The notes under the pieces: model-generated | Seen by the model: only the letters and a program-made list of their open reading frames with translations | What the model was told of the DNA's origin: nothing | Databases searched by the model: none | Made by a program: the position numbers and the translations under genes | From: Lachnoclostridium sp. An196 | GTDB lineage: Bacteria > Bacillota > Clostridia > Lachnospirales > Lachnospiraceae | Length of the DNA stretch: 64,000 nt | Reading direction: 5' to 3' | NCBI RefSeq assembly: GCF_002160135.1 | Contig: NZ_NFJZ01000012.1 | Coordinates: 1 to 64,000 of the forward strand | In this document: piece after piece, positions 4,057 through 14,602 of the stretch | How positions within the stretch are numbered: position 1 is the first letter of the stretch | How the letters are laid out: the number at the start of each line of letters is the position of its first letter

Positions 4057-4494
4057 ATGAAAGGGTTTCCAAAAACGCTTAAGACAAAAGATGATTATTA
4101 CAACTGCCTTGCTATGGTGGCGGCAGGAGAGCTGAAAGCAGCAGACCTGCTGGCAAAGATTGAGGGGCTGGAAAAGCAGCGCTACATACAGTGCGCCGTT
4201 GTAAAGGCAGAGGAGGCAAAGAAAGCCGTAACAATTTATTACTGCGACGAGGCAGCAGAGGGCATGGCTTTTGTGTCCGGAGACGTAAGCGGCACAGTAA
4301 CGGCAGTTACCCACACAAAGAGCGAGGAGGCAGAGGTGGCAGGCGAGGAGATGAACGACAGAACCGTTTTAACCCTGTCTAAAGGAATTGCCGCAGGAAG
4401 TACCGTTATTGCGCTGGAACACGCGGAAAAGGTAGCGGGAATGGATACAAACGATATTGCAGCGCTGAAAGGAGTTTTAAAGAAGTATGAGTAG
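4057..4494 (+). CDS. Phage protein of unknown function between baseplate and DGR target genes
   Basis: I chose the ATG at 4057, which follows AGAAAGGGG, over an upstream in-frame start that would lie inside the previous gene. The 145-residue product has a helical N-terminus (KTKDDYYNCLAMVAAGELKA, KIEGLEKQRYI) and a beta-rich middle (VTIYYCDEAAEGMAFVSGDV). It overlaps the variable-protein gene by eight bases, so the two are probably co-translated. Position suggests a tail-tip or chaperone role for the variable protein, but no family is recognised. Confidence 0.6.
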   Translation: MKGFPKTLKTKDDYYNCLAMVAAGELKAADLLAKIEGLEKQRYIQCAVVKAEEAKKAVTIYYCDEAAEGMAFVSGDVSGTVTAVTHTKSEEAEVAGEEMNDRTVLTLSKGIAAGSTVIALEHAEKVAGMDTNDIAALKGVLKKYE

Positions 4495-5629
4495 ATTATT
4501 GGTTGACGACGTAACGAAAACAGACAGCCGGGCGCTTCTGAATGTAAGCAAAATGGCGACTATCAGCGACATTGTGACACCGACGAACCAGTATTTATAT
4601 GCCAGCGGAGCCAATGAGCTTACCTTAGTGGAAAACTGCGTAATTTCCGTAGGGGCAGCGGGAGTATTCAAAACAGGAAATACCGTTTTAAATGCCGCGA
4701 ATTTGGACGTAGGCAGTGCTTTTACCGTGGGCTGTGATTACTACGTTTATATCTGTGACAGCAGGGTAGACGCGCAGGACGAGCAGTATGTCATTTCTCT
4801 TAATTCCACATATCCTACAGGCTGGAACGCCAGCAACAGCAGGAAGATTGGAGGCTTTCATTACGGGCGCTGCCGTAAGGTGGACGGGAATTTACAGCCC
4901 ACAAACAGCAGCGGCGTGATTTTTGGCACAGGCTGGGAGAGCGCCGTAAGCAACGGCATTGTGCCGCGCAGCGTATGGACGCTGGGACACCGCCCGAAAT
5001 GTAACCCGGAGGGCATGGTATATATCGGAGGCGGCACATGGGTAGACATTTACCTTAATTCTGACGACGGAGAAATGGGGCTGAAATCGGAGTACAACTG
5101 TGCGCCCATGACAGGAACGGAGGGCATGAACTGGTATAATTTTGTGGAGCGGCTGGCAAAGAGCGGTAAGCGCCTGCCGGATTACGCGGAGTTTTGCGCT
5201 TATGCTTTTGGCAGCCCTGCGGGACTGGACGACGCGAACACAAACGCATGGAGTGCAACGACAAATAGCGGCAGAGACGTAACGGGCAGCGTAGTTAATG
5301 CTGTATCTGCTGTAGGCTGCGTGGACGCTGTAGGCCGTGTATGGGAATGGCTGAATGATTTGATTACCAGAGCCGAACACGCCAAGAATACGGAAAACCA
5401 CCCTAACGAGGCGTGGGGCTGGGATACCAATACACCGCTGAAAACAGGAGAAAAGAACTACGACGTTGGTAATATCTATCAGTATTACTATAATTCTCTG
5501 GCGGCGCTGATGGCGGGCGGCGGCTGGGGCAGTGGCGCGCGGTGCGGCGCGCGTGCGGTGAGTTGCAACGATTACCCGTGGGATGTCAGCGCGTACACCG
5601 GGGCGCGCGGGGCGTGTGACAGTCTGTAG
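4487..5629 (+). CDS. DGR target: variable phage receptor-binding-type protein (C-type lectin/FGE-like fold)
   Basis: The 380-residue product is the diversified protein of the retroelement. The N-terminal third is beta-rich and phage-like. From about residue 200 it shows features of the formylglycine-generating-enzyme/C-type-lectin class used by DGR targets: GMNWYNFVERLAKSGKRLPDYAEF, NAWSATTNSGRD, and VGRVWEWLNDL. The C-terminus (about residues 337-378) is the VR. Its variable positions are at codons that are mostly Asn in the template and read here as G, G, S, R, S, D, D, S, A and Y. By analogy with Mtd of phage BPP-1 it should display a mutable ligand-binding face at the tail tip. It overlaps the preceding gene by eight bases and is followed by hairpin, Avd, TR and RT. 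Confidence 0.93.
   Translation: MSRLLVDDVTKTDSRALLNVSKMATISDIVTPTNQYLYASGANELTLVENCVISVGAAGVFKTGNTVLNAANLDVGSAFTVGCDYYVYICDSRVDAQDEQYVISLNSTYPTGWNASNSRKIGGFHYGRCRKVDGNLQPTNSSGVIFGTGWESAVSNGIVPRSVWTLGHRPKCNPEGMVYIGGGTWVDIYLNSDDGEMGLKSEYNCAPMTGTEGMNWYNFVERLAKSGKRLPDYAEFCAYAFGSPAGLDDANTNAWSATTNSGRDVTGSVVNAVSAVGCVDAVGRVWEWLNDLITRAEHAKNTENHPNEAWGWDTNTPLKTGEKNYDVGNIYQYYYNSLAALMAGGGWGSGARCGARAVSCNDYPWDVSAYTGARGACDSL
5496..5620 (+). repeat. DGR variable repeat (VR)
   Basis: This 125-bp segment aligns without gaps to the TR at 6065-6189 (offset 569). There are 13 mismatches, every one at an adenine of the TR: 12 read G in VR and one (5594) reads T. VR mismatch positions are 5512, 5522, 5523, 5528, 5529, 5532, 5541, 5562, 5570, 5582, 5589, 5591 and 5594. 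TR has 25 adenines in this span, so about half are changed, and no non-adenine differs. The last 26 bp are identical and GC-rich, the expected initiation-of-mutagenic-homing (IMH) segment. The frame ends nine bases later. Confidence 0.98.
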
Positions 5630-5630
5630 A

Positions 5631-5651
5631 CGGCGGGCGAAAGCCCAGCCG
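5631..5651 (+). promoter_or_regulatory. DGR hairpin/cruciform with GAAA loop downstream of VR
   Basis: Arms 5631-5638 and 5643-5651 form an eight-base-pair GC stem with a single bulged A (5647) and the tetraloop GAAA. It starts ten bases after the VR end, just behind the stop codon of the variable protein. Phage DGRs such as BPP-1 carry an eight-pair hairpin with a GRNA-type loop at this place, which raises homing efficiency; the match in stem length, loop and position supports the same role here. Confidence 0.85.
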
Positions 5652-5675
5652 CAAGTAGTGGGAGGATAAAAAAGC

Positions 5676-6032
5676 ATGACGACGAGAGACAAAAGCGATA
5701 GGCTACACCAGAAAATATATGATTTTCTGCTTTATATCTATCCGCTGCTTAGCAAGTATCCGAAATATGAGAAATTCAGCTTACAGACAGCGACCAGAAA
5801 CGCCATACTGGAAATGCTGCAAGAGGTAATAAAGTGGCAGAAAACAGCCACGAAAAGCCATTTATACGCAGCGGATACGGCATTACAGCAGAGTAAGGAG
5901 CTTCTGCGGCTGGCAAATGATTTGAAGTATAGCGCTATGAACGCCCAGCACTACGGCCAGTGCTGCAAACGGCTTGCCGAGTTGGGCGTTATGCTGGGAG
6001 AAATCATAGACGAAGTAAAGGCTACGAGATAG
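5676..6032 (+). CDS. avd: DGR accessory variability determinant (Avd-like four-helix protein)
   Basis: The 118-residue, fully helical, basic product lies between VR and TR. It shows the Avd/four-helix-bundle pattern: an N-terminal helix (DRLHQKIYDFLLYIYPLLSK), KYEKFSLQTATRNAILEMLQ, then a central helix with LLRLANDLKYSAMNAQHY and a final helix (KRLAELGVMLGEIIDEVKA). Avd forms a pentameric barrel that binds the reverse transcriptase and TR RNA and is needed for mutagenic homing. A GGGAGGA ribosome site precedes the ATG. Position and pattern together make the assignment firm, though similarity was judged by eye. Confidence 0.9.
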   Translation: MTTRDKSDRLHQKIYDFLLYIYPLLSKYPKYEKFSLQTATRNAILEMLQEVIKWQKTATKSHLYAADTALQQSKELLRLANDLKYSAMNAQHYGQCCKRLAELGVMLGEIIDEVKATR

Positions 6033-6064
6033 CCGGAATATGGGGCAGCTGCTTACTTACAGCC

Positions 6065-6189
6065 CTCTGGCGGCGCTGATAGCGGGCGGCAACTGGAACA
6101 ATGGCGCGCAGTGCGGCGCGCGTGCGGTGAATTGCAACAATTACCCGTGGAATGTCAACACGAACACCGGGGCGCGCGGGGCGTGTGAC
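6065..6189 (+). other. DGR template repeat (TR) with downstream RNA spacer
   Basis: This is the invariant donor copy of VR, lying between avd and the reverse transcriptase gene. Asn codons (AAC/AAT) are concentrated at the mutable positions, the usual design that lets adenine mutagenesis reach many residues without stops. It sits in a 76-codon open frame that starts at 6040 but needs no protein product. The 165 bp from 6190 to the RT start hold no convincing gene; in known DGRs this stretch is part of the TR RNA and is required for priming and cDNA synthesis. Confidence 0.97.
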
Positions 6190-6354
6190 TTAGTGAGAGC
6201 ATTACAGGCGCAGTGTTTTACGAAATGCTGGCAAGGACTTTTAATTAAGCAAATGCTTAATATCCTATAGTCAGAGCGGCTGTCCCGCCGTAAGGCAAAG
6301 AGAAAAAGCAGGGCTGCTGGTTAGTAGCTGCGGCGAAAGGCAGGAGCTTTTTAA

Positions 6355-7425
6355 TTGAAGCGTATTTCACACGTTAAGAACCGAAACGGCCAGCTGGTAA
6401 CGCTTATAGAGGCTATGGCCGATTACGGAAATATCCAGATTGCCTACAATAAGGCCAGAAAGTGCAAGCGATACCGCAAGGACGTTTTGATATTTACGAA
6501 AGAGAAAGAGGAGAATTTAGAGCGTGTAAGGCGGGAACTGCTGGAACTGTCCTATGAGCCGGGAGAGTACCGATATTTTAAGGTATATGAGCCAAAGGAA
6601 AGGCAGATAATGGCGTTGCCGTTTTATGACAGGGTGGTACAGCACGCCATAAACAACGTGATAGAGCCGATTTTCAGTAGGCGCTTTCTTTACCACTCTT
6701 ACGCCTGCCGGAAAGAAAAGGGTATGCACAGGGCTTCTGCCACGCTGAAAAGCTGGCTTTACAGCTGGGAAAAGCATAACCCGGATAAACCGCTTTATGC
6801 AATTAAGGCAGACATACACCATTATTTTCAAAGTATCGACCACGAAACGCTTAAGGCGGAAATAAGGAGCCTGATAAAAGACGAGGGAGCGATTGCACTT
6901 ATTGAAAGGATTATAGACCATAACGGCACAATGCCGGACGGGGTGGGGATACCTGTAGGAAACCTTACCAGTCAACTATTTGCCAATACATATCTGAACA
7001 TCTTAGACCAGTACATAAAGCACACGCTGGGAGCAAAGTATTACGTCCGGTATATGGACGATTTTATAATACTTAGCCCGGACAAGAACCAACTGCGGGA
7101 ATGGCTGGCAGAGATTGAGAGATTTTTAAGGGAACGGCTGAAACTGGAGCTTAACCCGAAAACAGCGATTTTATCAGCGAAGAACGGAATAGATTTTGTG
7201 GGATATAAGCATAGGGCGACACACAAGAAAGTAAGGCGCGACAGCATAAAGCGTATAAAGAAAACAATCCGAAAGCACCAAAGAGGGGACATTACAAAAG
7301 AGCGGTTACAAAAGAGTATTGCAAGCTGGACGGGACACGCAGGCCACGCCGACAGCTACAATTTACGAAAGAAAATAGTAACGCTTGCGGCAGCGGCGGA
7401 AAAGAAAGGGGGCGGCGGCTTGTAA
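6355..7425 (+). CDS. DGR reverse transcriptase
   Basis: The 356-residue product is a retroelement RT of the DGR clade. Residues 198-207 read GIPVGNLTSQ, the DGR-type motif 4 (SQ where most RTs have SP), and the catalytic box YMDD is at 233-236. Earlier motifs include YEPGEYRYFKVYEPKERQI, YACRKEKGMHRA and the pattern IKADIHHYFQSIDH with the first catalytic Asp. There is no maturase or endonuclease extension, and the length fits DGR RTs. The start is TTG at 6355 with CAGGAGC seven to eight bases upstream; no ATG gives a better N-terminus. It copies TR RNA with errors at adenines. Confidence 0.97.
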   Translation: MKRISHVKNRNGQLVTLIEAMADYGNIQIAYNKARKCKRYRKDVLIFTKEKEENLERVRRELLELSYEPGEYRYFKVYEPKERQIMALPFYDRVVQHAINNVIEPIFSRRFLYHSYACRKEKGMHRASATLKSWLYSWEKHNPDKPLYAIKADIHHYFQSIDHETLKAEIRSLIKDEGAIALIERIIDHNGTMPDGVGIPVGNLTSQLFANTYLNILDQYIKHTLGAKYYVRYMDDFIILSPDKNQLREWLAEIERFLRERLKLELNPKTAILSAKNGIDFVGYKHRATHKKVRRDSIKRIKKTIRKHQRGDITKERLQKSIASWTGHAGHADSYNLRKKIVTLAAAAEKKGGGGL

Positions 7426-8262: not shown

Positions 8263-8421
8263 ATGGCGGAAATCAAAAGCGAAAGCACTAAGGAAATGAC
8301 GCAGGAAGAAATTAAGAGCCTGCGGGAAAAGGTGGCGAAAATGACACCAGAGGAGCTGCGGGAGTTTAGAAATTCTCATAATGCAGACGAAATGGGCTTT
8401 TGGGGAGAGGAGAGCGTATAA
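8263..8421 (+). CDS. Small acidic/basic helical phage protein
   Basis: I take ATG 8263 (AAGCGAGG upstream) rather than the in-frame start at 8212, which lies inside the terminator. The 52-residue product is helical (EMTQEEIKSLREKVAKMTPEELREFRNSHN). It ends two bases before the endolysin ATG and is probably co-translated. No family recognised; small upstream genes of this kind often accompany lysins. Confidence 0.55.
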   Translation: MAEIKSESTKEMTQEEIKSLREKVAKMTPEELREFRNSHNADEMGFWGEESV

Positions 8422-8422
8422 T

Positions 8423-9976
8423 ATGCAGATAAATAAACTGCTTACACCATACAATTTTACAGACGCAAACGATACAGGCAGGATAAAATATATTGTTATC
8501 CACTATGTCGGAGCGTTGGGAGGAGCAAAGGCAAACTGCCAGTATTACGCGGGGCAGTATATAGGAGCTTCTGCGCATTACTACGTTGGATTTTCCGGGG
8601 AAATATGGCAGAGCGTGCCGGACGAAGATATAGCATGGCATTGTGGAGCAAAGAGCTACAAACATGCGGAGTGCCGGAATACAAACAGCATAGGTATTGA
8701 GCTGTGCGTAAGAAAGAAAAATACGGCACATCTGGGGGCGGAAGATAAAGACTGGTATTTTGAGGACGCGACCGTAAGGGCGGCAGCGGAGCTTACGAGG
8801 TACTTAATGGATAAGTACGGCGTTCCTGCGTCCCATGTTATCCGGCATTATGATGTTACCGGGAAGATTTGCCCTAATCCGTATGTCTATAACGCCACGG
8901 CGCACAAATGGGACGAGTTTAGAGGGCTGATTAGCGGAGCGGAAGTTACCGAGCCGCAGCAGAACCAGCAGGGCGCAGGCTCATATAAAGTAAAGGTTGA
9001 AATTGACGACCTTAACATAAGAGTAGGAGCAGGCACTAATTATGCCAAGACTGGGGGATATACCGGGAAAGGTGTATTCACGATTGTAGAGGAGAAAGCC
9101 GGGCAGGGCAGCACCGCAGGCTGGGGCAGGCTGAAAAGCGGCGCAGGCTGGGTATCTCTGGATTACTGCATAAAGATTGAAGGGAGCGAGACGGGAACGG
9201 CCGAAACCGGAACGGCAGACGGAGGAGACACAGAAAGCACAATCTGGGAGTTTCTGACTGGAAAAGGGCTAAATGCTTATGCCGCTGCCGGGCTTATGGG
9301 GAACCTGTACGCAGAAAGCGGGCTTGCAGCAAATAACCTGCAAAATTCCTACAGTACAAAGCTGGGAATGAGTGACGAGGAGTATACAGCTGCGGTAGAT
9401 AATGGCAGCTATACTAATTTTGCGCATGACAGCGCAGGCTACGGGCTGGCGCAGTGGACGTACTACAGCCGGAAACAGGCTTTATATGACTATGCAAAGG
9501 CGGCGGGCACGTCTATCGGAAATCTGGATATGCAGCTTGATTTTCTATGGCAGGAATTGCAGGGGTACAAGTCTGTTATGGAAAAGCTGACGGCGGCAAC
9601 GTCTGTGCGGGCGGCTTCTGACGCTGTGCTTTTAGGATACGAAAAACCAGCAGACCAGAGCGAAGCAGTCCAGAAAAAGCGGGCAGAGTACGGCCAGAAC
9701 TTTTACAATATATATGCAGGAAAGAAAAACGAGGAGGCAGAACCAGAGCCGCAGAAACCGGCGGCAGCAGTGCCTTATACTGTGAAAATAGATATTTCAG
9801 ATTTGAATATCAGAACAGGAGCGGGCACAAACTATGCAAAGACCGGGGAATATACCGGGAAAGGCGTATTTACGATTGTAGAGGAGAAAGCCGGACAGGG
9901 AAGTACCGCAGGCTGGGGCAGGCTGAAAAGCGGCGCAGGCTGGGTATCTCTGGATTACTGTACTAAGCTGGCATAA
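8423..9976 (+). CDS. Modular endolysin: amidase_2, SH3, tail-lysozyme-like domain, SH3
   Basis: From ATG 8423 (GGAGAGGAG upstream) the product has 517 residues. Residues ~15-165 are an N-acetylmuramoyl-L-alanine amidase of the PGRP/amidase_2 type, with zinc ligands H27, H142 and C150 and the patterns IVIHYVG, AHYYVGFSGEIWQSVPDEDI and RHYDVTGKICPNP. An SH3 cell-wall-binding domain follows (~188-250). Next is a domain with WEFLTGKGLNAYAAAGLMG and NLYAESG, matching phage tail lysozyme (glucosaminidase/lysozyme-like). A second, nearly duplicated SH3 closes the protein. It degrades host peptidoglycan at lysis, cutting both peptide and probably glycan bonds. No signal peptide is seen, so it relies on the holin. 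Confidence 0.92.
   Translation: MQINKLLTPYNFTDANDTGRIKYIVIHYVGALGGAKANCQYYAGQYIGASAHYYVGFSGEIWQSVPDEDIAWHCGAKSYKHAECRNTNSIGIELCVRKKNTAHLGAEDKDWYFEDATVRAAAELTRYLMDKYGVPASHVIRHYDVTGKICPNPYVYNATAHKWDEFRGLISGAEVTEPQQNQQGAGSYKVKVEIDDLNIRVGAGTNYAKTGGYTGKGVFTIVEEKAGQGSTAGWGRLKSGAGWVSLDYCIKIEGSETGTAETGTADGGDTESTIWEFLTGKGLNAYAAAGLMGNLYAESGLAANNLQNSYSTKLGMSDEEYTAAVDNGSYTNFAHDSAGYGLAQWTYYSRKQALYDYAKAAGTSIGNLDMQLDFLWQELQGYKSVMEKLTAATSVRAASDAVLLGYEKPADQSEAVQKKRAEYGQNFYNIYAGKKNEEAEPEPQKPAAAVPYTVKIDISDLNIRTGAGTNYAKTGEYTGKGVFTIVEEKAGQGSTAGWGRLKSGAGWVSLDYCTKLA
9853..9961 (+). repeat. Recent duplication of SH3-coding DNA (other copy 9061-9169)
   Basis: The 109 bp here match 9061-9169 with only five differences and no gaps; flanking SH3 codons are more diverged. 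The pattern suggests recent duplication or gene conversion within the endolysin gene. Confidence 0.85.
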
Positions 9977-11404: not shown

Positions 11405-12460
11405 ATGGCAAATAAGAAAGGGAGCAGGCAGCTTACAAAAGCTGACAGGATAAAAATAGAGGCATTATTAAAAGCGGGGCATAGCAAAAGGGAAATTGCC
11501 GCGCAGCTGCACGTACACCGCAGTACGATTTACAACGAGCTTAAGAGGGGCAGATACATACACCGCAATAGTGACTGGACGGAGGAAGAACGGTATAGCC
11601 CGGATATAGCCCAGAAACGCTGCGAGGAAAATTTAAAAGTGCGTGGCACACAGCTTAAAATAGGCAACGATATAGCCTATGCAAATTACATAGAGGATAA
11701 GATAGTAAACGAGGATTACAGCCCGGCTGCCGTTCTGGGAGAATTGAAAGCGCAGGGGAAAGAGGGGGAGTTTTCAACTACAATATGCGTCACTACGCTT
11801 TACAGTTACATTGATAAAGGGATTTTCCTTAAGCTGACAAATAAGGATTTGCCAGTAAAGAAGAATAAAAAGCGGGGCTATCATAAAGTAAAGAAACAGC
11901 AGGCCAGAGCCAACGCCGGAGAGAGTATAGAGAAGCGCCCGGAGGAGATAGACAAAAGGGAAGAATTTGGGCACTGGGAAATGGATAGTGTCATAGGAAA
12001 GCGCGGAAAGTCTAAAAATACTCTGCTGGTGCTGACGGAGCGAAAGACGCGGGACGAGATAATATTTAAACTACCAGACCACACAGCAGAGGCGGTAGTA
12101 GCCGCAGTGGATAGGTTAGAAAGGAAATGGGGAGAACTTTTTAAACAGGTATTCAAGACCATTACCGTAGATAACGGCAGCGAGTTTGCATATTGTGAGG
12201 CGCTGGAAAAGTCTGTATTGGGGGAGGGCAACAGAACAAAGCTATATTACTGCCACCCGTATAGTAGCTGGGAGAGAGGGACGAACGAAGTAACAAATAA
12301 AATGGTGCGCCGGAAAGTACCAAAGGGGACGGATTTTGACGAAAAGACGGAGGAGGAGGTGCAGAGCATTGAGGACTGGATAAACAATTACCCGCGCCGT
12401 ATTCATGGATACCATACGGCGGCAGAACGGTTTACAGAGGAGGTAGAGAAACTGGCATAA
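11405..12460 (+). CDS. IS30-family transposase (phage-terminal)
   Basis: The 351-residue product has an N-terminal IS30 HTH (LTKADRIKIEALLKAGHSKREI, HVHRSTIYNELKRG) and a DDE integrase core: D194 in HWEMDSVIG, D256 in TVDNGSEF and E290 in SSWERGTNE, a D-E spacing of 33 typical of IS30. It ends with IHGYHTAAERF. Length is normal and there is no frameshift. I see no terminal inverted repeats around the gene, and its stop overlaps the ATG of another small gene (TAATG). It therefore looks like a resident phage gene in the place where an integrase is expected, not a simple IS copy. Confidence 0.9.
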   Translation: MANKKGSRQLTKADRIKIEALLKAGHSKREIAAQLHVHRSTIYNELKRGRYIHRNSDWTEEERYSPDIAQKRCEENLKVRGTQLKIGNDIAYANYIEDKIVNEDYSPAAVLGELKAQGKEGEFSTTICVTTLYSYIDKGIFLKLTNKDLPVKKNKKRGYHKVKKQQARANAGESIEKRPEEIDKREEFGHWEMDSVIGKRGKSKNTLLVLTERKTRDEIIFKLPDHTAEAVVAAVDRLERKWGELFKQVFKTITVDNGSEFAYCEALEKSVLGEGNRTKLYYCHPYSSWERGTNEVTNKMVRRKVPKGTDFDEKTEEEVQSIEDWINNYPRRIHGYHTAAERFTEEVEKLA

Positions 12461-12639
12461 TGGCAGCAGGAGGCAGATACAAGGCGCAAAGGCTGGCGGA
12501 AACGGCAGCTTTAAAGGCGAGCCGGAATAAAGAGACGGAAACACAGCGCTTTCTTAGTATGATGTGCATTATATATAAAAACAGCAGAATGAAATTATAC
12601 AAAATGCTGAAACTGATTTTTTGTCGAAAAAAAGGTTGA
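12460..12639 (+). CDS. Small basic protein coupled to the transposase; last prophage ORF
   Basis: ATG 12460 overlaps the TAA of the transposase gene. The 59-residue product begins GGRYKAQRLAETAALKASRN and turns into a Lys/Met-rich end (NSRMKLYKMLKLIFCRKKG) in AT-richer DNA. The codon style changes around 12545, so the frame may run out of the phage into host DNA and its 3' half be accidental. No family recognised. The prophage/host border probably lies between about 12540 and 12670. Confidence 0.45.
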   Translation: MAAGGRYKAQRLAETAALKASRNKETETQRFLSMMCIIYKNSRMKLYKMLKLIFCRKKG

Positions 12640-12673
12640 AATTTTTAATGTTATTCTAGTTTATCAAATTTTG

Positions 12674-12702
12674 TTGTCATCGGCATTTCTGAATGCTATA
12701 AT
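12674..12702 (+). promoter_or_regulatory. Promoter for the GH13-like gene
   Basis: TTGTCA (12674-12679) and TATAAT (12697-12702) are spaced by 17 bp, about 50 bp upstream of the ATG at 12752. It marks host sequence after the prophage. Confidence 0.7.
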
Positions 12703-12751: not shown

Positions 12752-14602
12752 ATGTTTGAATATCAGGTGGAGGCCGGAAGACCGGAGCGGCTGGGCGTGA
12801 CAAAAGAGGGAAAAGACATCAATTTTGCGGTGACGGTGAGAGACGGCGGGGCATGCAGCCTGCTTCTTTATCCCAGAGGAGAGAAGGAGCCGGAAGCGGA
12901 ACTGGAGTTTTCAGAGGACATGCAGTACGGGGATCTGTATGCCATGAAGATCCGCCAATTTCCCATGGACCGGTATGAATACAATTACCGGATCAACGGA
13001 ACGGTTGTCCAGGATCCCTATGCGGATGCGGTTGCAGGCCGGGAGGTATGGGGGAACTGTCCGGACAGTCCTCATGAGGTTCGCTGCAGGGCGGATTTCG
13101 CGCCGTTTCCCTGGCAGGGAGACCAGCCGCTGGAGCTGCCTTATGAAAAGTGTGTTCTGTACATGACGCATCCCAGGGGATTTACGATGGATCCGTCATC
13201 CCGGGTACGTCATCCGGGAACGTTCGCCGGGATAAAGGAAAAGATCCCGTATCTGAAGAACCTGGGGATCACGCAGCTGGAGCTGATGCCGGTCTATGAA
13301 TTTGCAGAAGCAGAGGCGGAGGAGACGCCGAAGAAGCATATGCCGGTGAAGAAGCGCAAGATGGAAATGCTGAATTACTGGGGGTATGGGAAAGCGTGTT
13401 TCTTTGCGCCCAAAGCGTCTTACAGCGCGTCTGGGAATCCGGTGCGTGAGATGAAAGAGCTGGTGAGAGAACTTCATAAAAACGGGATTGAATTGATCCT
13501 GGAATTTTATTTTCCGTATATGACCAGCCCGGCGCTGGTTCGGGACTGTGTAAAACACTGGGTATCGGAGTACCATATTGACGGCGTTCACGTAAATGCG
13601 CAGGACACGCCGCTGATCTGTCTGTCATGGGAGCCTCTGCTGTCCAGAACGAAGATTATGAGTGAATATTTTCCCCTGGAAAGGATCTATGAATCAGATT
13701 ATCAGCCGACATTCCGGCGGCTGGCGGAGTATAACGATGATTTTATGATCAAAGCGCGCCGCTTCCTGAAAGGAGATGAGGATACACTGTGGCAGATCTC
13801 CGAGAGTATGAGACGAAATCCGGCGCAGCAGGCGGTGATCAATTACATAGCCTGCCACAATGGATTTACCCTGGCGGACGCGGTTTCTTACGATGTGAAG
13901 CACAATGAAGACAACGGGGAAGACAACCGGGACGGGACAGACTGCAATCACAGCTGCAATTACGGTGAAGAGGGACCTACGTCCAAAAAAGCGCTGCAGT
14001 CTCTCCGAAGACGTCAGATGCGCAATGCGTTCCTGATCCTGCTGCTGTCCCAGGGAGTTCCGGCTGTCTATGGCGGAGATGAGATGGGAAATTCCCAGAG
14101 AGGCAATAATAATGCCTACTGCCAGGACAACGAAATCTCCTGGATACAGTGGAGCAGAAAGAAATATGACCGCCAGATGCAGGAATTTGTCCGGGAGGCG
14201 ATCGCTTTCCGCGGCCGTCATGCAGCGTTCGGACGAAGAAAGCCATATGTGATGAGCGACTATCTGTCAAAAGGCATGCCGGATCTGTCCTATCACGGAA
14301 CCCGGGCCTGGTACGGGGAGTTTGAAAGCTACAACCGGCAGATGGGTATCCTGTATGCCGGCGAATATACGGGAGACCGCACTTTGTATGTTCTCTACAA
14401 TATGCATATGATTGAACATGAGATCGCGCTTCCTACGCTCCCCGCAGGTCAGAGCTGGTATCTGCTGGCAGACACCGGCAGGGAAGGGGCATCGACCTTT
14501 TTGAAGGAAGAGGAAAAGATACTGCTGGAAGACCAGAAGATGGCGGCGGTTCCTCCCAGAACTATATGGATACTGACAGGTGAGACACATGAAAATGATT
14601 AA
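12752..14602 (+). CDS. GH13 glycogen-debranching-like protein, catalytic residues lost
   Basis: The 616-residue product has an N-terminal CBM48-like domain (residues ~10-105) and a (beta/alpha)8 GH13 barrel of the GlgX/isoamylase type; LPYEKCVLYMTHPRGFTMDPSS, LNYWGYGKACFFAPKASYSA and QGVPAVYGGDEMGNSQRGNN are all recognisable. The signature regions are altered. Region II, normally GFRFDLA, reads GVHVNAQ with N282 at the nucleophile. Region IV, normally HDG, reads HNG with N370. The region I stretch normally ending in NH is ILEFYFPYMTS. It is probably a non-catalytic glycan-binding or regulatory protein. The next gene overlaps its end. Confidence 0.85.
   Translation: MFEYQVEAGRPERLGVTKEGKDINFAVTVRDGGACSLLLYPRGEKEPEAELEFSEDMQYGDLYAMKIRQFPMDRYEYNYRINGTVVQDPYADAVAGREVWGNCPDSPHEVRCRADFAPFPWQGDQPLELPYEKCVLYMTHPRGFTMDPSSRVRHPGTFAGIKEKIPYLKNLGITQLELMPVYEFAEAEAEETPKKHMPVKKRKMEMLNYWGYGKACFFAPKASYSASGNPVREMKELVRELHKNGIELILEFYFPYMTSPALVRDCVKHWVSEYHIDGVHVNAQDTPLICLSWEPLLSRTKIMSEYFPLERIYESDYQPTFRRLAEYNDDFMIKARRFLKGDEDTLWQISESMRRNPAQQAVINYIACHNGFTLADAVSYDVKHNEDNGEDNRDGTDCNHSCNYGEEGPTSKKALQSLRRRQMRNAFLILLLSQGVPAVYGGDEMGNSQRGNNNAYCQDNEISWIQWSRKKYDRQMQEFVREAIAFRGRHAAFGRRKPYVMSDYLSKGMPDLSYHGTRAWYGEFESYNRQMGILYAGEYTGDRTLYVLYNMHMIEHEIALPTLPAGQSWYLLADTGREGASTFLKEEEKILLEDQKMAAVPPRTIWILTGETHEND

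Follow-up and report, generated by a model that had tools for sequence, protein, structure and literature searches.

A complete BPP-1-type diversity-generating retroelement beside prophage tail genes, and its probable IS30-type phage vehicle

What does a reverse transcriptase do beside the tail genes of a prophage, and how did the prophage come to lie where it does? The question is raised by the first 64,000 nucleotides of contig NZ_NFJZ01000012.1 of Lachnoclostridium sp. An196 (the window, whose numbering is used for coordinates; it lies on contig C4 of genome G000, and L and G labels denote loci and genomes). Here 4487-7425 is found to be a complete diversity-generating retroelement (DGR) of the BPP-1 type, ordinary in kind. 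The original prediction had listed a variable target protein, a variable repeat (VR), a hairpin, Avd, a template repeat (TR) and a reverse transcriptase (RT), intact and in this order; all are confirmed, with open reading frames (ORFs) where it had placed them. The A-to-G bias, the structured RNA, two further DGRs of the genome and the probable transposase-type integration described below are additions to that prediction. We put at roughly 95% the probability that an intact DGR, lying next to tail genes in a temperate phage that judging by its relatives has a Lachnospiraceae host, rewrites an Mtd-like receptor-binding protein.

Realignment of VR with TR reproduced the predicted ungapped match over 125 nt with 13 mismatches, and all 13 fall on TR adenines, which are 25 of the 125 TR bases (hypergeometric P = 3.4e-11). 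The changes, 12 A to G and one A to T, alter 11 codons, chiefly AAC/AAT. When TR was compared with the whole genome, only TR itself and this VR matched. TR/VR-like pairs were found in 181 of 276 scanned sequences, with duplicate contigs and the window itself counted, and the 4.2-kb region had no match in the phage collection searched in near mode.

A comparison of VR and TR across relatives, proposed as a check on the original prediction, was run on public relatives in three groups (7, 5 and 5 loci; 41 pairs) and came out in its favour: near-identical sister phages differ almost solely at TR-adenine sites of VR. VR differs at 10-20 such sites in 40 of the 41 pairs, the exception being L201-L205, whose VRs are identical; at the remaining VR sites there are 0-2 differences. 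Backbone stretches of these pairs are 0 to about 7.5% different (four L042 pairs are without upstream target sequence). Between the sister phages L201 and L209, RT (0/900), TR (0/126) and the target upstream of VR (4/900) are nearly unchanged, and VR differs at 15 of 26 TR-adenine sites and at 0 of 100 others.

Two structured elements accompany the repeats. The hairpin, CGGCGGGC-GAAA-GCCC(A)GCCG, starts 10 nt past VR. Folded as DNA in a 43-nt frame it reaches -9.9 kcal/mol, and 0 of 200 shuffles were equally stable (z -3.45). In a scan of 129 distinct post-VR stretches, GAAA-loop hairpins of at least 7 pairs were the most frequent class (26), and L041 keeps the same form with one stem pair exchanged. 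Phage DGR hairpins are described as having a stem of 7-10 bp and a GRNA loop at 4-34 bp from VR (PMC3240598), and the loop here is of that GRNA type.

In a 14-sequence alignment, the RNA between the TR end and the RT start forms six helices. UGACU of the TR end (6186-6190) is joined to AGUCA (6269-6273), some 80 nt further 3′, by standard pairs in 14 of 14 sequences. Double changes occur in 13 of 33 pairs. Shuffles give 4.0 such pairs and slid controls give 2 to 6, although the slid control flatters the result, since the alignment that was scored is also the one that yielded the structure. By cells, 97.8% of the alignment is paired and 27 cells carry double changes, compared with 5.1 in shuffles (0/500 as high) and 2 to 8 when slid. 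A structured RNA 3′ of TR is also a feature of BPP-1. The Rfam family RT-14 was matched above gathering in one of 11 relatives (L219, 63.9 bits), where the match begins at the 3′ end of TR, which suggests that the RT-14 family represents the tail of template RNAs from DGRs. A likely RT ribosome-binding site, AGGAG (6342-6346), lies in the 3′ arm of conserved helix 5, 8 nt before the RT TTG; therefore RT translation may depend on the opening of helix 5. Parts, order, adenine specificity, sister-phage variation and RNA covariation of the DGR are established at the level of sequence.

Some observations weigh against an intact, working DGR. In a 61-nt frame the hairpin is not significantly stable (z = -1.07, 27/200 shuffles equally stable). 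For 'further pair types', one of the measures of covariation, 5 of 500 shuffles reached the observed value. RT-14 matches the window RNA at full length with 31.8 bits, under its gathering score of 48.1. A near-exact public contig, IMGVR 2788500604 (L038/L198), identical over 12,285 and 11,483 bp, has the same VR; it is probably from the same isolate as the window, and is therefore uninformative on variation of the window's own phage. Lastly, the G158 phage (97.3% identical, in another genus) has a different VR that is gapped relative to its own TR, as is its upstream region, so that decay or errors of assembly may have affected this VR.

Could the DGR be a fossil, intact through recent descent but inactive in this lysogen, with VR frozen? 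The shared VR of the near-exact contig would fit, although that contig is probably from the same isolate. On the other hand, the RT, Avd and target ORFs are open, the RNA helices are retained, and sister phages are hypervariable, which makes a fossil unlikely.

The working DGR would act on the target, for which tail location and receptor-binding type had been predicted; both hold. The target matches the second Mtd domain of Pfam (mtd_2nd, 2.1e-41) and the tail-protein family phrog_11262 (1.5e-95). Among solved structures it matches Mtd 1yu4 as a single sequence (1.4e-21), and as a 50-sequence profile it matches Mtd chains at 6.1e-33 over profile positions 37-361, VR covered. The Mtd-type homology spans the middle and C-terminal domains, with the variable residues in register. 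In the last 42 residues, all 11 columns that vary among five Mtd chains coincide with codons that hold a TR adenine here, of which there are 15 (P = 3e-7). Of the 11 changed residues of this VR, 9 are in these Mtd-varying columns (P = 6e-6). The variable residues of Mtd make up one receptor-binding face.

The target could instead be a virion decoration or an enzyme of FGE-like fold. It has a weak, partial FGE-sulfatase match (17.8 bits, compared with the Pfam cut-off of 23.3), and capsid decorations are reported among some gut DGR targets (PMC5883640). Yet the Mtd-like layout, the variable positions held in common with Mtd and the location after tail genes render such a role improbable, and argue for an adsorption protein.

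RT and Avd complete the set. The predicted LTSQ and YMDD motifs are present in the RT translation, as GNLTSQ and YMDD. Its best solved relative is PDB 8ub7 (7.2e-56), which is entered in the PDB table as reverse transcriptase and which we take to be the Bordetella DGR enzyme; the second is 5hhj (6.4e-19). Against PHROGs it matches phrog_1423 (9.6e-135). The RT class is assigned from comparisons with solved structures, PHROGs and NCBIfam. Avd scores 89.4 bits against NCBIfam NF033474 (cut-off 80), and also matches Pfam bAvd (1.5e-19) and phrog_3206. That the RT belongs to a defence system, group II intron or retron, with TR/VR as a chance or duplicated repeat, is hardly credible: the top NCBIfam match is group_II_RT_mat (145.5 bits) and PADLOC gives 75 families headed by a generic RT model (3.8e-52), but the former score is far under the 300-bit cut-off, 8ub7 is ahead of the next structure by 37 orders of magnitude in E-value, Avd is present, and the mismatches are adenine-only.

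By analogy with the BPP-1 system, we expect that cDNA priming and homing take place, that adsorption is affected and that the DGR is active in the prophage of the window. TR RNA with its folded 3′ tail would be copied to cDNA by an RT-Avd complex, with errors opposite adenines. The cDNA would then take the place of VR, with the hairpin and the GC-rich 3′ end, identical in both repeats, as guides. Replacement would rewrite up to 15 codons in the C-type-lectin tip of the Mtd-like receptor-binding protein, and the rewritten tip would change the adsorption partner of the virion.

Table 1. Positions of the DGR, prophage and junction features in the window.
Feature	Position	Strand	Description or basis
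Variable target, Mtd homologue, phage tail receptor-binding protein	4487-5629	+	380 aa; Pfam, PHROG and PDB matches
VR	5496-5620	+	125 bp, 3′ end of target gene; 13 TR mismatches, all at TR adenines
Hairpin/cruciform	5631-5651	+	8-bp stem, one bulged A, GAAA loop; folding, relatives, published rule
Avd accessory protein	5676-6032	+	118 aa; NF033474, bAvd, phrog_3206
TR	6065-6189	+	125 nt, direct-repeat partner of VR
Structured DGR RNA, TR end to RT start	6186-6354	+	14-sequence alignment, six helices; RT-14 below gathering
DGR reverse transcriptase	6355-7425	+	356 aa, TTG start, GNLTSQ, YMDD; 8ub7, phrog_1423
Phage endolysin (amidase + tail lysozyme + SH3)	8381-9976	+	prophage part, outside DGR
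IS30-family transposase, probable integration enzyme	11405-12460	+	NF033563
Right terminus of prophage, imperfect terminal inverted repeat	12623-12647	+	end comparison
15-bp target duplication	12648-12662	+	second copy at left end, contig C9
Predicted host sigma-A promoter, TTGTCA 17 TATAAT	12674-12702	+	26 bp from phage end, before ORF at 12752

The window opens with prophage tail genes, namely Dit, minor tail and virion structural genes, followed by target, Avd, TR and RT. The DNA at its start probably belongs to the end of a tape-measure gene, as it matches part of a gene on contig C30 that PHROGs calls tape measure. Hemolysin/holin-like genes and then the endolysin gene lie 3′ of RT; the endolysin gene holds an internal duplication (9025-9168 and 9817-9960, 92% identical). 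Farther on, the transposase scores 243.6 bits against NF033563 (cut-off 80), which places it in the IS30 family. A relative of 59-82% identity occupies the corresponding position in 16 of 22 related loci, and in the remaining six the fetched stretch probably ends at or before that place, judging by spacing. Families of tyrosine (PF00589) and serine (PF07508) recombinases had no match on C4 or C9; other contigs match.

Contig C9 carries head, protease, portal, terminase and tail genes. Homology with the G158 copy ends at 12647, and the prophage ends are imperfect inverted repeats around TTGTCG. The 15 bases after 12647, ATGTTATTCTAGTTT, are repeated on C9 directly before the left end near C9:24219, which supports that C9 and C4 are the two sides of one prophage, with the assembly broken at repeats. 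A search for duplications covered eight elements. Six prophage copies of five genomes have them, with 15 bp in front of a left end of phage type in five (G000, G158, G202, one of G051, and G336) and 14 bp in the other of G051. In L523 no more than about 2 kb separates the right end from the 15-bp copy upstream of it, and L543 has no duplication in the 16-kb stretch searched. The closest eleven relatives are mostly Lachnospiraceae, G202 is ranked in the family of the window, and 97%-identical copies of the prophage occur in two genera.

C9 also holds ParA- and ParB-like genes (C9:14178-16477, L281). In its left arm, some 350-640 nt inward from the left end, is a small IS30-like helix-turn-helix protein, recognised by eye and separate from the transposase. 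In L041, L043, L481, L484, L487 and L492 the right end runs into an apparent left end, as in circular-type joints. The joints of L043 and L484 bring the end TTGACA/TTGAAA to a TAGAAT-like box, perhaps forming a junction promoter.

Does the prophage choose its landing site? Right ends were scored for the best TTGACA-N16-18-TATAAT in the first 55 offsets, by a simple consensus score of our own. Junctions with identical first 40 host bases were merged and transposase matches of less than 57% identity were dropped, giving 33 distinct right-end junctions; outside these are 5 without a recognised end motif, 6 circular-type joints and 11 that are too short. The best sigma-A -35 starts at +26 in 24 of the 33; for 31 it lies within 25-29, and for the same number within 22-29. 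Mononucleotide shuffles (500), a null that preserves composition but not intergenic context, placed a -35 at 22-29 in 4.7 junctions on average (maximum 10). A promoter score of at least 9 of 12 was reached in 25 junctions, compared with 6.3 on average in shuffles (maximum 13).

Some junctions do not favor promoter targeting. The peaks of L477 (+39) and L128 (+6) are elsewhere, and 8 of the 33 score only 8 (the shuffle mean is 7.8); of these eight, L118, L121 and L123 are without a convincing -10. Some of the 33 junctions may be plain insertion sequences (ISs; compare L523). On balance, it is probable that the DGR is carried by a gut phage family whose prophage is inserted by an IS30-type DDE transposase, with 15-bp duplications and with the right end 26 bp upstream of a host sigma-A -35.

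Further DGRs were observed in the same genome. Two more DGR RTs with their own TR/VR are on C30, at about 4715-5664 and 140190-141000 (L279, L280), with VR changes at 12 of 28 adenines and no other site, and at 11 of 24 adenines and one other. Each has a DUF6273-like target, below the Pfam cut-off, and an endolysin gene 3′ of the target. The first C30 DGR adjoins a second IS30-family transposase of the same kind (C30:11828). L279 and its G051 twin (L458) share a 99%-identical 10-kb phage stretch, whose right end borders on different host DNA in each. They are identical in target upstream (0/986), TR (0/94) and TR end to RT (0/1381), and VR differs at 10 of the 28 TR-A sites and at none of the 66 other positions. 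One more RT in the genome, of 606 aa, is on contig C22.

The A-to-G excess in the window (12 of 13) was compared with spectra pooled from 146 distinct TR/VR pairs, in which A to G makes up 919 of 1845 changes (P = 0.0016; 0.004 once corrected for the 3′ base). Excluded from the 146 pairs, and from a larger set of 229, were L179, L191 and L176 (repeat arrays), duplicates, pairs of <80 nt or <4 A changes, and those with non-A mismatches at >20% of A changes. Spectra are overdispersed between pairs, with X2 of 312 in the 146 (simulated maximum 201, 2000 runs) and 457 in the 229 (simulated maximum 310). Among clusters with TRs at least 88% alike, the A-to-G unevenness was matched by 3 of 2000 permutations (2 of 1000 with more data); it is weak at 93% (70/1000) and gone at 97% or above (104/1000). 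A special per-event mutation mechanism was rejected, as the unevenness vanishes among near-identical TRs. In the L201 cluster, outside which the window lies at 97% TR identity, seven sister VRs have 64 G, 10 C and 16 T, and at such a rate the chance of at least 12 of 13 is about 0.07 by hand arithmetic. The skew is thus mostly a lineage property, mild for the clade, because spectra differ between lineages and not detectably within near-identical TRs. The BPP-1 enzyme, assayed in E. coli, is likewise described as erring most often by misincorporation of C, which gives A to G (PMC12875486).

How does the locus compare with known systems? It is like the BPP-1 DGR in its Mtd-homologous target, Avd, DGR RT and GRNA-loop VR hairpin, but the target core is 28.8% identical over 65% of the query, and the phage is different. 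The BPP-1 gene order, mtd-avd-TR-brt, is the same as here, while its phage differs in host phylum and integration type. Clostridium clostridioforme LM41 is likewise a Lachnospiraceae host. Its prophage phi3 is described with Avd, RT and an FGE-like protein (PMC11318856), a set resembling that of the window.

Faecalibacterium phage FP_Lagaffe likewise uses an IS30-family transposase as its integrase, 59.6% identical to that of the window. Its description includes IS30-type integration, flanking direct repeats, a DGR with a target of the FGE/MTD superfamily, and VR variation in virion reads (PMC5883640). On the other hand, its target has no match to the window target within E 1e-5, and the accessible text of the paper names no promoter preference (PMC5883640; 0 occurrences of 'promoter'). 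TnGBS and p-MULT elements, as described, use a DDE transposase and insert in front of sigma-A promoters with a constant spacing (PMC3942029), comparable to the +26 of 24 of 33 junctions here. They differ in belonging to the Mutator superfamily, with the -35 at 15-17 bp instead of IS30 and 26 bp, and in their described carriers, which are integrative and conjugative elements, transposons and ISs and not phages (PMC3942029). Among the Pfam and NCBIfam matches of window proteins there is no Mutator-type family, the best family being IS30. The searches made, which covered open-access PMC, showed no promoter targeting by an IS30-type transposase or by a phage.

The DGR gives BPP-1 a clean and well-bounded relative from the Gram-positive gut flora, with many sister phages, and is useful for testing host tracking by variable receptor proteins. 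The surprising part is the vehicle of the DGR rather than the DGR itself. If true, promoter-targeted insertion would mean that a second family of transposases, this one in phages, has come to use landing sites similar to those of TnGBS elements. Such a phage would pair two wide-host-range devices, a self-mutating receptor protein and a target, housekeeping promoters, common to every bacterium, and the copies in two genera are consistent with this. Promoter landing, if true, would explain how such phages settle in distant hosts once the DGR permits entry.

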